From the NCBI RefSeq assembly GCF_032102965.1, contig NZ_CP134880.1, positions 434,001 to 498,000 of the forward strand: 64,000 nt of DNA, written 5' to 3'. This DNA comes from Demequina capsici. GTDB lineage: Bacteria; Actinomycetota; Actinomycetes; Actinomycetales; Demequinaceae. Both the position numbers and the translations under genes were made by a program. A model generated the notes under the pieces. It did not search any database, had not been told where the DNA came from, and saw only the letters and a list, made by a program, of their open reading frames with translations. Every line of letters starts with the position of its first letter. The first letter of the stretch is position 1. This document shows positions 19,457 through 59,780 of the stretch, one piece after another.

Positions 19457-21145
19457 ATGACCCGTTTCGTGCAGCGCCTGCGCGCTCCTGAGCCAGGGTG
19501 GACCACCCACGCGGACGTCGTGGTGGTGGGGTCCGGGATCGCGGGCCTCACCGCGGCGCTGGAGCTTCGCCAGAAGGTGGATCGCGTCCTGCTCGTCACC
19601 AAGGGGCTGCTGAGCTCCGGCTCCACCGTGTGGGCGCAGGGAGGGATCGCCGCCGCGCTCGATCCGGAGGACACGCCGGAGGAGCACCTGCAGGACACCC
19701 TCGTGGCCGGCGTCGGCACCTGCTCGGAGCAGGCCGTGCGCACGCTCGTCACGGAGGGGCCCGACAGGGTGCGCGAGCTCGTCAAGCGGGGAGCGCACTT
19801 CGACACCCAGGCCGACGGGTCGATCACGCTGACCCGTGAGGGCGGCCACCACCGCGACAGGATCGCCCATGCCGGCGGTGACGCGACGGGCGCGGAGATC
19901 TCGCGTGCGCTGATCGCGCAGCTCGAGGCGGTGCGGAACGATCCCGGCATCGAGGTCATCGAGCATGCGATGGTGGTGGACCTGCTCACCGCCGCCCCGG
20001 ACGCGGAGGGTCGCCCTGGTGCGATCTGCGGCGTGACCTTGCACGTCATCGGCGAAGGTTCCCGCGACGGCGTCGGCGCCGCGCTCGCGAAGGCCGTCAT
20101 CCTCGCTACCGGCGGCATCGGCCAGCTGTTCCGCTCGTCGACGAACCCGTCGTCGGCCACGGCGGACGGTCTCGCGGCGGCATTCCGTGCGGGCGCTGCG
20201 ATCGCGGACCTGGAGTTCGTGCAGTTCCATCCGACGGTGCTGTGGGAGGGTTCGTCGGCGCTCGGGCAGCTGCCGCTCATCTCGGAGGCGGTGCGGGGCG
20301 AGGGCGCCTACCTGCTGAACGCCGAGGGTCAGCGCTTCATGGTGGGGCAGCATGAGCTCGCCGAGCTCGCGCCGCGTGATGTCGTGTCCCGTGCGATCGT
20401 GCGGATGATGGCGCAGGAGGAGTCCGACAACGTCTTCCTCGACTGCAGACACCTGGGCGGCGAGTTCCTCAAGAAGCGGTTCCCGACGATCCATGCGCGG
20501 CTCGCCGAGCGCGGCATCGACATGGGGACCGACCTGATCCCCATCGCTCCGGCGCAACACTTCCACTCAGGTGGGGTGCTGACCGACCTGCGCGGGCGTT
20601 CCACGCGTCCGGGCCTGTACGCCGTCGGCGAGGCGGCGTGCTCGGGCGTGCACGGAGCGAACCGGCTCGCCTCGAACTCCCTGCTCGAGGGGCTGGTCTT
20701 CGCCACCCGAGCCGCGAAGGACGCCGCCGCGGTCGTGGCGGACGGAGTGGTCACGCAGCACGAGCCGGTGAACCGTCTGGGGCCCAGCGCGCTCGTGCCT
20801 GCGACCCAGCGCCCGCGGATCCAGTCCATCACGCACGGGGGAGCGGGTCCTGTGCGTGAGGCCGTCGGCCTGCAGCGTGCGGACATCAAGCTGGAGCGGC
20901 TTCGCGAGCAGTTCCACACCGACGATGCGGGGCCTATGCCGCAGGTCGCGGAGTGGGAGACCACCAATGTGCTTCAGGCGTCCTCGGTGCTGGTGCGCAC
21001 TGCGCTCGCCCGCGAGGAGACACGCGGCGGCCATCTGCGCATCGACTTCCCCAAGCAGGACACGCGCTGGGAGGTGCGCCAGGCCGCGACGATGGACGCG
21101 GACGGCCAGCTGTCGCTCATGCGAGTGCCGCTCGACATCGGCTGA
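19457..21145 (+). CDS. nadB: L-aspartate oxidase
   Basis: A 562-residue flavoenzyme oxidising aspartate to iminoaspartate, the first step of de novo NAD synthesis. The FAD-binding start is VVVVGSGIAGLTAALE (~24-39). The STVWAQGGIAAAL segment and the active-site region around HFHSGGVLTD and GEAACSGVHGANRLASNSL are typical of NadB and the succinate dehydrogenase flavoproteins. It starts 21 bp after panD. nadC lies 2.3 kb downstream, separated by a reverse-strand module. No nadA is visible, so quinolinate synthase must be elsewhere or upstream in another locus. Confidence 0.95.
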   Translation: MTRFVQRLRAPEPGWTTHADVVVVGSGIAGLTAALELRQKVDRVLLVTKGLLSSGSTVWAQGGIAAALDPEDTPEEHLQDTLVAGVGTCSEQAVRTLVTEGPDRVRELVKRGAHFDTQADGSITLTREGGHHRDRIAHAGGDATGAEISRALIAQLEAVRNDPGIEVIEHAMVVDLLTAAPDAEGRPGAICGVTLHVIGEGSRDGVGAALAKAVILATGGIGQLFRSSTNPSSATADGLAAAFRAGAAIADLEFVQFHPTVLWEGSSALGQLPLISEAVRGEGAYLLNAEGQRFMVGQHELAELAPRDVVSRAIVRMMAQEESDNVFLDCRHLGGEFLKKRFPTIHARLAERGIDMGTDLIPIAPAQHFHSGGVLTDLRGRSTRPGLYAVGEAACSGVHGANRLASNSLLEGLVFATRAAKDAAAVVADGVVTQHEPVNRLGPSALVPATQRPRIQSITHGGAGPVREAVGLQRADIKLERLREQFHTDDAGPMPQVAEWETTNVLQASSVLVRTALAREETRGGHLRIDFPKQDTRWEVRQAATMDADGQLSLMRVPLDIG

Positions 21146-21166: not shown

Positions 21167-21194
21167 GGGGCGGCGTCCTTAGGAACGCCGCCCC
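21167..21194. terminator. Terminator between nadB and the CoADR-rhodanese gene
   Basis: A 10-bp GC-rich stem (GGGGCGGCGT with ACGCCGCCCC) with a partly paired CCTTAGGA-type loop, between convergent genes. It can act in both directions. Confidence 0.75.
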
Positions 21195-21226: not shown

Positions 21227-22909
21227 TCAGGCGTTCGCGTGCTGGGCGACGCCGGTGACCAGATCGAGCTCCGGGAGCGCGGTCTGCATGGTGAGCATGC
21301 CGCCGTCGAAGTTCGCGGAGTCGAAGCCCTCCTGGTCGAGGATGCGGTGCGCGAGGTAGGAGCGGAAGCCGGAGGCGCAGTGCACGCGCACCGGGCGACC
21401 GGCGGCGAGCTCGCGGATGAGCTCCAGGTTCTCGCGGATCTCATCGTGCGGGATGTTGACGGCCTCGGGGAGGTGCCCGCGGGTGAACTCGCCTGCGGAG
21501 CGCACGTCCAGGATGAACGCGTTCTCGCGGGCCCACTCGACATCCTCGGCGTGCCACAGCTTGAGCGTGCCGAGGAGCGTGTTCTGCATCATGAAGCCGA
21601 GCATGTTGACCGGGTCCTTGGCGGAGCCGAACGGCGGCGCGTAGGCGAGCTCGAGCTCGGCCAGGTCGTCGGCGCCGAAGCCTGCCCGCAGCGAGGTGGC
21701 GAGCACGTCGATGCGCTTGTCGACTCCGGCGCGACCGACGCCCTGGGCGCCGAGGAGCGTGCCGTCGGGTGCGAAGGCGGCCATGAGGTGCACCTGGTCC
21801 GCGCCGGGGTAGTAGCCGGCGTGGTTGAGGTGGTGCGTGTGGTGCACGACATGCTCGATGCCTGCCTGGTCGAGCATGCGGGGTGACGCGCCGGTCATGG
21901 CGGCGGTGAGGCCGAAGACCTTGACGATCGCGGTGCCGAGCACGGGCTTGGCGGGCTTGGCGACGCCCATGATGGACTCGGCGGCGCGTCGTCCCTGACG
22001 GTTGGCGGGGCCGGCGAGGGGCACGGGTCCGGTGACTCCGGTGATCTGGTTGCGCACGGCGATCGCGTCGCCGACTGCCCAGATGCTCGGGTCGTCGGTG
22101 CGCTGCTCGTCGTCGACGAGGATCGCGCCGCGCTCGTCGACGGCGAGGCCGGCGTCGGAGGCGAGCGACGAGTTGGGGCGGACTCCTACGGAGACCACCA
22201 CGATGTCGACGTCGGCGGAGGCGCCGTTGGACAGCGTGACGGTCACGCCCTTGCCGGACGCGGCGGGGGCCACCGCGGACGCGGCGAGGCCGGTGACGAC
22301 ATCCACGCCGTTGGCGCGGAGCTCGAGCTCCACGAGCCGGGCCATCTCGGGTGCCAGCGGGGGCAGCACCTGCGGCGCCATCTCGATGAGAGCGACGTCG
22401 AGCCCGCGCTCGCGGAGCGCCTCGGCGGTCTCGAGCCCGATGAAGCCGGCGCCGAGCACGGCGGCGGTCTGTGCTCCCTCGACGCGCGCGGCGAGCGCGG
22501 TCGCGTCGTCCACGGTGCGCAGGTGCGTGACCTGGGGCAGGTCCATGCCGGGGATGGGGGGCGTGAAGGCGGTGGCGCCGGGCGAGAGGACCAGGGCGTC
22601 GTAGGAGACGACGTCGGTGCCCTGCGGTCCGGTGACCTTGACGGTCTTCGCGGCGCGGTCGATCGCGGTGACCTCGGTGTTGACGCGGACGTCCAGGCCG
22701 AGCGAGGCGCCGAGCGTCTGGGGGGTGTGGAGCAGGAGGGCCTCGCGGGACTGGATGTCCCCACCGACGTGGTACGGAAGTCCGCAGTTGGCGAACGAGA
22801 CGTCGGGGCCCTTCTCGAAGACGATGATCTCCGCGGATTCGTTGAGGCGGCGGGCGCGCGCGGCGGCACTCATGCCTCCGGCGACACCTCCGACGACGAC
22901 GATGCGCAT
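21227..22909 (-). CDS. CoA-disulfide/persulfide reductase with C-terminal rhodanese domain
   Basis: 560 residues. Residues ~1-450 form a pyridine nucleotide-disulfide reductase: FAD site GGVAGGMSAAARARR (7-21), redox Cys42 in SFANCGLPY as in CoA-disulfide reductases, and an NADH-binding GAGFIGLETAEAL segment. Residues ~465-550 form a rhodanese domain with active Cys511 in VHCASGFRS. Such CoADR-RHD proteins reduce CoA-persulfide or polysulfide and are linked to sulfide stress. The ATG at 22909 has GGAAGGAG 5 bases upstream; a start five codons earlier would bury that site. A perfect CsoR/CstR-type operator lies 40 bp upstream and a CsoR-family gene is next on the same strand. Confidence 0.9.
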   Translation of the reverse strand: MRIVVVGGVAGGMSAAARARRLNESAEIIVFEKGPDVSFANCGLPYHVGGDIQSREALLLHTPQTLGASLGLDVRVNTEVTAIDRAAKTVKVTGPQGTDVVSYDALVLSPGATAFTPPIPGMDLPQVTHLRTVDDATALAARVEGAQTAAVLGAGFIGLETAEALRERGLDVALIEMAPQVLPPLAPEMARLVELELRANGVDVVTGLAASAVAPAASGKGVTVTLSNGASADVDIVVVSVGVRPNSSLASDAGLAVDERGAILVDDEQRTDDPSIWAVGDAIAVRNQITGVTGPVPLAGPANRQGRRAAESIMGVAKPAKPVLGTAIVKVFGLTAAMTGASPRMLDQAGIEHVVHHTHHLNHAGYYPGADQVHLMAAFAPDGTLLGAQGVGRAGVDKRIDVLATSLRAGFGADDLAELELAYAPPFGSAKDPVNMLGFMMQNTLLGTLKLWHAEDVEWARENAFILDVRSAGEFTRGHLPEAVNIPHDEIRENLELIRELAAGRPVRVHCASGFRSYLAHRILDQEGFDSANFDGGMLTMQTALPELDLVTGVAQHANA

Positions 22910-22948
22910 GGGTACTCCTTCCAAGGGTTGACGGCACTACCGTACCAG

Positions 22949-22964
22949 ATACCCCCGGGGGTAT
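22949..22964. promoter_or_regulatory. CsoR/CstR-type operator
   Basis: ATACCCCCGGGGGTAT, a perfect 16-bp palindrome 40 bp upstream of the CoADR-rhodanese start. It matches the known ATACCCC-GGGGTAT pattern bound by CsoR-family repressors, especially CstR. The rest of the 22965-23070 gap shows nothing else clear. Confidence 0.85.
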
Positions 22965-23070
22965 GCCAGACCTAGGTCCCGCACCTCATCCGGAGCGTGG
23001 CAGGCACGCCTCCGGCCAGGCTACGACCAGGGACGATGCCCTGTGAGGTGGGTGAGCCGTCAACCGTGGC

Positions 23071-23340
23071 TCAGGACAGCGCCATAAACATCTTCTCGAG
23101 GCGGACCTTGGCATCGGCCGCGTCCTCGCCCTCGCGCACGCACTGCTCCAGGCCCGACGCGATCATCGTGAAGCCCGCGCGGTCGATCGCCTTGGAGACG
23201 GCGGCGAGCTGGGTGACGATGTCGCCGCACTCGCGGCCTTCCTCCACCATGCGCAGGACGCCGGCCAGCTGGCCGTGTGCACGACGCAGCCGCTTGACGA
23301 CGGGCTCAAGCTCCGCCTCGCTGAGGTGAACCTCGGACAT
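23071..23340 (-). CDS. CsoR-family repressor, CstR-like (persulfide sensor type)
   Basis: An 89-residue all-helical repressor. RRAHGQLAGVLRMVEEGREC is the family core. Cys38 and Cys67 sit 29 residues apart, as in CsoR (C36/C65) and CstR (C31/C60), but the position of the copper-binding His of CsoR is Gly63. Loss of that His with both Cys kept is the CstR pattern, which senses persulfides rather than Cu(I). The next gene is a CoADR-rhodanese, a known CstR-type target. The start is taken at the ATG at 23340; 18 extra in-frame codons upstream are not family-like. Confidence 0.87.
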   Translation of the reverse strand: MSEVHLSEAELEPVVKRLRRAHGQLAGVLRMVEEGRECGDIVTQLAAVSKAIDRAGFTMIASGLEQCVREGEDAADAKVRLEKMFMALS

Positions 23341-23389: not shown

Positions 23390-23433
23390 CACATGGACAG
23401 GGCGGTGTGACCGATTCATGCCACGATGTGCCT

Positions 23434-24381
23434 ATGACCGACCTCGTGGACACCGCCGCCGACGCCGCGGCCGGCTCTCTGCACCCCGAGCAGCAGCCTC
23501 AGGATCTCCCCCTCTCCCGCACGTGGCTGGCCGATGCCGTGCGGCGCACGCTCAGCGAGGACCTGGGGGGCTACCCGGGGCGCGACGTCACCACCCTGGC
23601 CACGATCGCGGCCGAAGCGCAGGTGTCGGGCACGGTCATGATGCGTCAGGACGGCGTCGTCGCGGGCCTGGACGTGATCGCCGAGGTGCTGGCCCAGGTC
23701 TCCGTCCGCCTGGGGCTGCCGCATCCCGTCGTCGAGCTGCTCGTCGCGGACGGCGACCAGGTCGGTGCCGGCACCGCGCTCGCGACGATCTCGGGCCCCG
23801 GGCACGTGGTCCTCATCGCCGAGCGCACCATGCTCAACCTCCTGTCCCGCGCGTCCGGCGTGGCCACCCACACCCGCCGCTGGGCCACCGCGCTCAAGGG
23901 CACTGGAGCGCAGGTGCTCGACACGCGCAAGACCACGCCCATGATGCGCGAGCTCGAGAAGTACGCGGTGCGTTGCGGCGGTGGCGTCAACAAGCGCGTG
24001 GGGCTGTACGACTGCGCGATGGTCAAGGACAACCACGTCGTCGCGGCAGGTTCCGTCACCGCAGCCATCGAGGCCGTCCGCGAGGCGTTCCCCGACGTCC
24101 CGATCCAGGTGGAGGTCGAGTCCGCGGCTCAGGCCGCAGAGGCGCTGAAGGCGGGAGCCCGCTTCCTCATGCTGGACAACATGGCGCCCGATGCGATGAC
24201 GGAGCTGGTCGCCGACATCCGCTCGCGCGAGAAGAAGCTGGGCAAGGTGCTGCTCGAGGCCACCGGCGGCCTCACGCTGGACAACGCCGTGGACGTGGCC
24301 GCCACGGGCGTCGACTTCCTCTCCGTGGGGGCGCTCACGCACAGCTCGCCGATCGTGGACATCGCGCTCGACCTGGCATAG
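23434..24381 (+). CDS. nadC: Quinolinate phosphoribosyltransferase
   Basis: 315 residues; converts quinolinate and PRPP to nicotinate mononucleotide in NAD synthesis. Signatures are ERTMLNLLSRASGVAT, LDTRKTTPMMRELEKYAV (with the Arg and Lys that bind substrate), CGGGVNKRVGL and KDNHV. The ATG at 23434 is preferred to a GTG nine codons earlier because the protein otherwise has an unusually long polar leader. It probably forms one functional set with nadB upstream although the CstR module lies between. Confidence 0.95.
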   Translation: MTDLVDTAADAAAGSLHPEQQPQDLPLSRTWLADAVRRTLSEDLGGYPGRDVTTLATIAAEAQVSGTVMMRQDGVVAGLDVIAEVLAQVSVRLGLPHPVVELLVADGDQVGAGTALATISGPGHVVLIAERTMLNLLSRASGVATHTRRWATALKGTGAQVLDTRKTTPMMRELEKYAVRCGGGVNKRVGLYDCAMVKDNHVVAAGSVTAAIEAVREAFPDVPIQVEVESAAQAAEALKAGARFLMLDNMAPDAMTELVADIRSREKKLGKVLLEATGGLTLDNAVDVAATGVDFLSVGALTHSSPIVDIALDLA

Positions 24382-59101: not shown

Positions 59102-59728
59102 ATGGCTGCAGAGGGCAAGGTCTACGAGCAGCTCAAGGCCGCGATCCTGCGTGGCGACTACGTTCCCCGGCAGCGGCTCGTGGAGGCCGAGCTGTGCGAG
59201 GACCTGGGCGCGAGCCGGTTCCAGGTGCGCCGCGCGCTTCTCACGCTTGAGGCCGACGGCATCGTGGAGCACCTGCCCAACAAGGGCGCTCGCATCCGGG
59301 AGATCGGGGTCGACGAGGCGGTCGAGATCACCGAGGTGCGGATGGTCGTCGAGGGGCTCGTGGCCGCGCGCGCGGCGGAGCGGGTGGATGATGCGCAGGC
59401 GGAGGCGCTCCTGGAGATCGGGCGGCGCATGCGGGCGGCCGTCGCGGAGGGTGACGTCGCCACCTACTCCGAGATGAACGGCGTGCTGCACCAGACCCTC
59501 CGTGAGATCGCCCATCACGAGAAGGCGAACGGGATCATCGCGCGACTGCACGGGCAGATGGTGCGGCACCAGTACGCGCTCTCGCGAGTGCCCGGCCGTC
59601 CGTCGGTCTCCGTGGTGCAGCATGAGGACATCATCAAGGCCGTCGTGGCGCGGGATCCGTCCGCTGCCGAGGCCGCGATGCGCCTCCACATCTCCTCCGT
59701 CATCGATGCGTTGAGGGCGAATTCCTGA
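59102..59728 (+). CDS. GntR-family regulator, FadR/FCD subfamily
   Basis: 208 residues. An N-terminal winged helix (~5-70; LVEAELCEDLGASRFQVRRAL) binds DNA. The C-terminal all-helical FCD domain (~80-200) binds an effector, with conserved Asp/His positions around EVRMVVEG, FHxxL-like MNGVLHQTL and VQHEDIIKAV. FCD regulators usually answer to organic acids. The ATG at 59102 follows GAGGAG 6 bases upstream; the GTG at 59078 is less likely. It is followed by the ABC operon behind a second copy of its likely operator. Confidence 0.9.
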   Translation: MAAEGKVYEQLKAAILRGDYVPRQRLVEAELCEDLGASRFQVRRALLTLEADGIVEHLPNKGARIREIGVDEAVEITEVRMVVEGLVAARAAERVDDAQAEALLEIGRRMRAAVAEGDVATYSEMNGVLHQTLREIAHHEKANGIIARLHGQMVRHQYALSRVPGRPSVSVVQHEDIIKAVVARDPSAAEAAMRLHISSVIDALRANS

Positions 59729-59780
59729 TACCTCCAGGGGTACAGAAGTCCTGGTTGCCGCATGAATGTCAGCAAAGTCG

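Follow-up and report, generated by a model that had tools for sequence, protein, structure and literature searches.

Genes and features between nadB and nadC

The window analyzed here, a stretch of 64,000 nt, comprises bases 434001–498000 of the single-contig genome of Demequina capsici (3,083,245 bases). It carries two adjacent reverse-strand genes between nadB and nadC, together with the following features.

19457–21145, forward: nadB, L-aspartate oxidase, flanking gene (Pfam and NCBIfam)
21167–21194: hairpin, a possible shared terminator between the convergent 3′ ends of nadB and the fusion gene
21227–22909, reverse: CoA-disulfide reductase/rhodanese fusion of the CoA-persulfide-reductase type, 560 aa, with Cys42 and Cys511; best solved relative 8a56
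22949–22964: putative operator ATACCCCCGGGGGTAT, an exact 16-bp palindrome ending 39 nt ahead of the fusion ATG
23071–23340, reverse: CstR-type repressor, 89 aa, with Cys38, Gly63 and Cys67; PF02583
23374–23389: degenerate operator ATACCCCTCCCCGTAC, three mismatches, between the repressor gene and nadC
23434–24381, forward: nadC, quinolinate phosphoribosyltransferase, flanking gene; ATG at 23434, alternative start GTG at 23407

The repressor scored 80.8 bits with PF02583 (Pfam), a family that includes copper sensors, and was the only gene of this CsoR family found genome-wide. Its two cysteines, Cys38 and Cys67, occupy the CsoR sensing positions, and the position of the Cu(I) ligand is held by Gly63, which in pairwise alignments lies opposite the His of copper CsoR 4m1p and of InrS 5fmn, and opposite an Asn of 7mq1; the C-H-C ligand set of a CsoR copper sensor is thus lacking. 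Both cysteines were kept in all 120 loci chosen for their similarity to the query repressor (21 + 11 + 8 + 80 best matches, certain genomes being counted twice), where the three positions read CGC in 115, CSC in 2, and CAC, CTC and CNC in 1 each. None of the 120 had C-H-C, although His-bearing paralogues would be absent from a set chosen in this way. The best solved relative was 7mq1/7mq2, which bears the PDB label CsoR; 7MQ2 is called CstR in the available text of PMC9774590.

The fusion contains the Pfam domains Pyr_redox_2, Pyr_redox_dim and Rhodanese, and Cys42 and Cys511 are its sole cysteines. As in the CoA-persulfide reductases (CoAPRs), a CoA-disulfide reductase domain with Cys42 is joined to a C-terminal rhodanese domain with a cysteine in the active loop. 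The best solved relative, 8a56, is the Enterococcus faecalis CoAPR (E 2.2e-146), whose rhodanese loop CHSGLRS aligns to CASGFRS of the fusion. The score with 8a56 (491.8 bits) exceeded those with 3nta and 3icr (458.9 and 438.7), which we take to be the NADH-dependent persulfide reductase Npsr and the Bacillus anthracis CoADR-RHD, two proteins of the same domain architecture as the fusion. These two identities also appear in the available text of PMC9405070. With the NCBIfam model for CoA-disulfide reductase, TIGR03385, the fusion scored 399.4 bits, below the 578.8 cut-off, and thus falls outside that model; its substrate may be a persulfide other than CoA-persulfide. Folding of the hairpin beyond its 3′ end, in a 66-nt stretch, was weak (z −1.92), with 7 of 200 shuffles folding equally well.

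The palindrome ahead of the fusion was the single operator match in the window at up to one mismatch, where 0.01 would be expected. A two-mismatch site at 59728–59743, between what appear by eye to be a GntR-like regulator gene and a solute-binding-protein gene, was not counted as an operator. The initial annotation had placed the module at 21227–23340, had read in the repressor the two CsoR-family cysteines with Gly at the copper-binding His position, had described its partner as a CoA-disulfide reductase (Cys42) coupled to a rhodanese domain (Cys511), and had marked a palindrome at 22949; genes, residues, domains and palindrome were all recovered in our analysis, and our alignments put no His at the ligand position.

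Two further elements were seen in reductase promoters. A second palindrome, GGGACCWWGGTC, lies upstream of the operator in the window and in L040, L041 and L044–L054. By eye, the promoters of L044–L054 also carry GGAAT about 18 bases ahead of GTT, across the operator, an arrangement resembling the sigma-R promoter consensus.

Operators and their putative targets

Operators were scanned for as ATACCC-N4-GGGTAT, with the reversed pattern as control; an earlier pattern with a wrong spacer, which gave 27 and 34 matches as compared to 77 and 59 for its control, was dropped. The whole genome contains six exact sites, and 40 sites at up to two mismatches as compared to three for the reversed pattern. 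Exact operators were found in 42 of 44 Demequina genomes (one to seven each, 181 in total, 175 of them in relatives of this genome), and the reversed pattern had no exact site in any of the 44. Three members of the genus lacked a detected repressor: G008 and G031, both well assembled, had no exact operator, and G004, whose assembly is 85% complete, had two. All 31 Demequina fusion or reductase genes examined, including that of the window, had an exact operator (N3–N6 spacing) within 150 nt upstream.

In this genome, exact sites precede the fusion, a rhodanese lipoprotein (assigned with a lipobox read by eye), a thioredoxin gene that is divergent from a DUF4916 gene across the operator, a membrane protein with a CPVC motif and a weak likeness to MerT, a small Cys-rich protein, and a GNAT-AAA gene. 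One-mismatch sites precede adhE, a sulfide:quinone reductase (matching 3hyv, E 9.9e-39), a second reductase fusion, a DoxX-like gene and, by eye, an FmdB-like gene; no convincing target was found for the one-mismatch sites at 350025, 2427460 and 2631748. The second reductase fusion (L178; 835 aa, G000:C1:2998642-3001149) joins a CoA-disulfide reductase to rhodanese, TusA and DsrE2 domains, and its gene start has a one-mismatch and a two-mismatch operator.

We examined 76 of the 175 sites in relatives, distinct by flanking sequence, and 74 of the 76 could be placed −30 to 170 nt from a gene start belonging to one of ten recurring families; two of the ten (a 73-residue membrane protein and a DUF4395 protein) were added post hoc, and without them the figure is 70 of 76. 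The counts by family, which overlap because certain sites serve two or three families, were as follows.

Small Cys-rich protein: 22 of 76 sites
Fusion: 16 of 76
Rhodanese lipoprotein: 14 of 76
CPVC membrane protein: 11 of 76
Sulfide:quinone reductase: 7 of 76
Thioredoxin: 6 of 76
DUF4916 gene, on the other side of the thioredoxin site: 6 of 76
adhE: 5 of 76
73-residue membrane protein: 3 of 76
DUF4395 protein: 3 of 76
Repressor: 1 of 76

The two sites outside the ten families have similar genes behind them. In two genomes an exact operator (L235:2001 and L243:2001) covers part of the start codon of a gene for a protein of about 100 residues; the L235 protein had no Pfam match. None of the GNAT-AAA, DoxX-like, FmdB-like and second-fusion genes had a counterpart behind an exact site in the relatives sampled, and their membership of the regulon is unconfirmed.

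The repressor thus appears, from the distribution of sites, to be the hub of a dispersed regulon. The suggestion that the pair forms a self-contained response was not borne out, as the only CsoR-family gene detected in the genome seems to serve sites across the chromosome. A genome-wide putative persulfide regulon can now be tested, with the genomes seemingly lacking the repressor as natural controls. Literature searches limited to titles and the openings of abstracts returned no comparable study of Demequina.

The most frequent target in relatives was the small Cys-rich protein, which in this genome has 58 residues (L278; G000:C1:1957018-1957191) and an exact operator 40 nt upstream. The family has the motif MCxPxxCxxCGKTTWxGCGxHxxxVxxxVPxxxxC in about 55 residues; 24 sequences ranged from 38 to 64 residues, with M1, C2, C7, C10, K12, G17, C18, G19, H21 and C35 invariant. 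The Demequina protein had no Pfam or NCBIfam match at E ≤ 0.001, three members had weak Pfam matches (E above 0.07), and a PDB search found no relative, its one match having E 0.11. The predicted fold, a beta hairpin and a helix (mean pLDDT 72.3, pTM 0.40), likewise had no PDB match at E ≤ 0.001, and its weak matches include zinc fingers. A text search of the literature, in which papers are not searchable by sequence, found no description of the protein.

One to three copies of the small protein were present in 42 of 44 Demequina genomes, and G031 keeps a copy although no repressor and no exact operator were detected in that genome. Among the best-scoring 30 of 59 matches, 29 loci had an exact operator 36–96 nt upstream. 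In the 11 Demequina loci where the repressor has another arrangement, the small protein always adjoins it, and in 10 of them it lies between the repressor and a divergent fusion gene, beside a shared operator. Beyond the genus, the best 80 of 291 matches yielded 63 repressor loci in other named Actinomycetota, which are not independent, many being from Nocardia or Gordonia; the small protein was near a repressor in 22, of which 9 had an operator (up to one mismatch) within 250 nt upstream of it and 13 did not. Over the 683 kb of these 63 loci we counted 142 operators (four spacings) as compared to 1 in one shuffled copy. In a phylum sample, where at most 33 candidates per genome were scored and the count is therefore a lower bound, at least 19 of 198 genomes had the protein; a CstR homologue was also present at 6 of the 21 loci outside this genome, and 3 of the 13 scanned for the motif had an operator within 250 nt upstream. 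Plasmids contained it in 68 of 72,556 records (E ≤ 0.01), all named genera being Actinomycetota; in a gene table described as incomplete, 30 of these 68 comprised 25 with no gene listed at that place, 4 with a hypothetical protein and 1 without annotation.

These observations raise the possibility, which we put at somewhat below even odds, that the small protein serves the persulfide response specifically and is widespread in Actinomycetota, acting under CstR control as a carrier or buffer of sulfane sulfur, or as a zinc/persulfide switch, together with the CoA-persulfide reductase and the rhodaneses. If it does handle sulfane sulfur, it would fill a gap between the sensor and the enzymes.

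Probable inducer, proposed mechanism and known systems

Our preferred reading, to which we assign a probability of roughly 85%, is that the pair consists of a CstR-type persulfide sensor and a CoA-persulfide-reductase fusion, with the repressor as the hub of a dispersed regulon. The proposal that a CstR-like sensor is paired with an enzyme of this type is well supported by the C-G-C pattern (115 of 120 loci), the best solved relatives and the sulfur-gene targets, and GC-rich palindromic operators ahead of putative sulfide and persulfide genes are likewise in keeping with a CstR. We infer from sequence the inducer, the chemistry, the repression itself and the identity of this repressor as the protein that binds the sites.

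In the known CstRs, the two sensing cysteines are on neighbouring subunits. The unmodified repressor would occupy the ATACCC-N4-GGGTAT operators and block transcription until sulfide is oxidized to persulfides or polysulfides, which would persulfidate or bridge Cys38 and Cys67. The modified repressor would then leave the DNA, allowing the adjacent fusion enzyme to be made; Cys511 of its rhodanese domain would accept the sulfane sulfur of CoA-persulfide or of a related compound, and the NAD(P)H-FAD-Cys42 center would reduce that sulfur to sulfide and a free thiol. The same repressor would also govern the sulfide:quinone reductase, thioredoxin, rhodanese lipoprotein, adhE, membrane proteins and small Cys-rich protein.

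The residue pattern and targets point to sulfur species, and not copper, as the probable inducer. That the repressor is instead a CsoR-type copper sensor lying by chance beside a redox enzyme is very improbable, even though its family includes such sensors, its nearest NCBIfam model is the copper-sensing RicR (with a score far below the cut-off), and one recurring target, the CPVC protein with its weak MerT likeness, is a possible hint of metal. The operator also resembles those of copper CsoR and RicR in the available text of PMC7533328, and because these have the same GC-rich form, the operator alone cannot name the inducer. However, His was absent from the ligand position in all 120 loci, several targets are sulfur or thiol genes, and the locus with a copper-type HMA domain (L319, where the neighboring ATPase was named by eye) contains a gene for a MerR regulator, and no operator was found there at up to three mismatches in the stretches examined.

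General thiol oxidation is a more serious competitor, but we consider it unlikely, at perhaps one chance in four. Here the repressor would sense mainly disulfide stress, with persulfide as one of several inputs, and the main activity of the fusion would be that of a CoA-disulfide reductase. The putative targets include thioredoxin and adhE, and the repressor dithiol could form a plain disulfide; in the available text of PMC10318464, Thermus TTHA1953 bound DNA less when disulfide-linked and was unresponsive to NaHS. However, the fusion retains a rhodanese domain with its cysteine, and the recurring targets include the sulfide:quinone reductase and rhodanese lipoprotein, which argues against it.

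Besides Npsr and CoADR-RHD, three known systems are closest to this one. E. faecalis CstR controls CoAPR, whose catalytic C42 and C508 are both needed (PMC9405070), and the two share with the window a CstR-type repressor and a reductase–rhodanese fusion with Cys42 and a rhodanese cysteine. Because the best solved relatives of the window pair are CstR and the Enterococcus CoAPR, a known regulator and its target, the pair itself is already known in kind; what our analysis adds is the small Cys-rich protein and a putative regulon dispersed over the genome. In E. faecalis, the cst-like operon also encodes two sulfurtransferases, whereas the putative Demequina targets are scattered and include the sulfide:quinone reductase, thioredoxin, adhE and small Cys-rich protein. 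Staphylococcus aureus CstR is similarly a dithiol repressor of sulfur genes (PMC9774590), but its targets form a clustered operon, unlike the dispersed Demequina sites, and a persulfide dioxygenase is absent from the targets assigned in the Demequina genome. The third, S. coelicolor SCO0620, is an actinobacterial CsoR-like sulfane-sulfur sensor with a dithiol (Cys37, Cys66) that binds ATACC-n6-GGTAT (PMC7533328), and the palindrome in the window is an exact instance of this site. SCO0620 regulates its own gene together with those for a persulfide dioxygenase, a rhodanese and a sulfite transporter, and a CoA-persulfide reductase is not mentioned in the available part of that source.

Gene order and the repressor–nadC interval

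The initial annotation had the pair splitting the NAD genes and facing against nadB, and proposed comparing gene order in relatives. The ends of the fusion (reverse) and nadB (forward) are indeed convergent, and among 21 Demequina relatives with a close repressor, this gene adjoins nadC in 20 (in L059 the contig stops before nadC could be reached), and 19 have the fusion between the repressor gene and nadB. In L056 and L057 no fusion was found in the 10 kb examined; in L095, from the same stretch as L056, a fusion starts about 5 kb beyond the repressor. The split holds for this genome but for only part of the genus. A further 16 Demequina genomes gave an unbroken nadC match; in 15 of them nadB and nadC are together without the pair, with gaps up to about 0.6 kb, and in the sixteenth (L334) nadB was not seen within the 1.5 kb examined. 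A single insertion of the pair between the two was not demonstrated, as the nadC tree needs three changes, and the arrangement formed one side of a branch in 0 of 200 bootstrap trees. Well-supported branches force only one change, however, and are thus compatible with one origin. Several loci of this arrangement have other genes inserted; L042, L055 and L058 have a PrsW-family protease gene (a Pfam match in L042, by likeness in L055 and L058) and a further gene between the repressor and reductase genes.

A site between the repressor and nadC, where the two promoters share a region, could mean that CstR also controls nadC and so ties NAD synthesis to sulfur stress. Of the 22 loci of this arrangement, 13 had an operator with at most one mismatch there, and in 12 of these it was exact with N5 spacing. 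Such a site was absent from the window, L040–L042 and L056–L060; a degenerate version was seen at loci without the full site (L059 being outside the comparison), including the window and L040–L042. In the window, its left half overlaps a possible repressor-gene −10, TATCCT, and it ends 44 nt ahead of the nadC ATG, upstream of a −10-like CACGAT (both by eye). The placement is that expected for autoregulation of cstR, and nadC starts much further away in certain relatives, so control of nadC seems improbable. Because the repressor's own promoter lacks a full site, classical autoregulation is itself doubtful in this genome. Many of these genomes have, by eye, a CACAAT- or CACGAT-like hexamer a few bases ahead of the nadC ATG, a leaderless-like arrangement.
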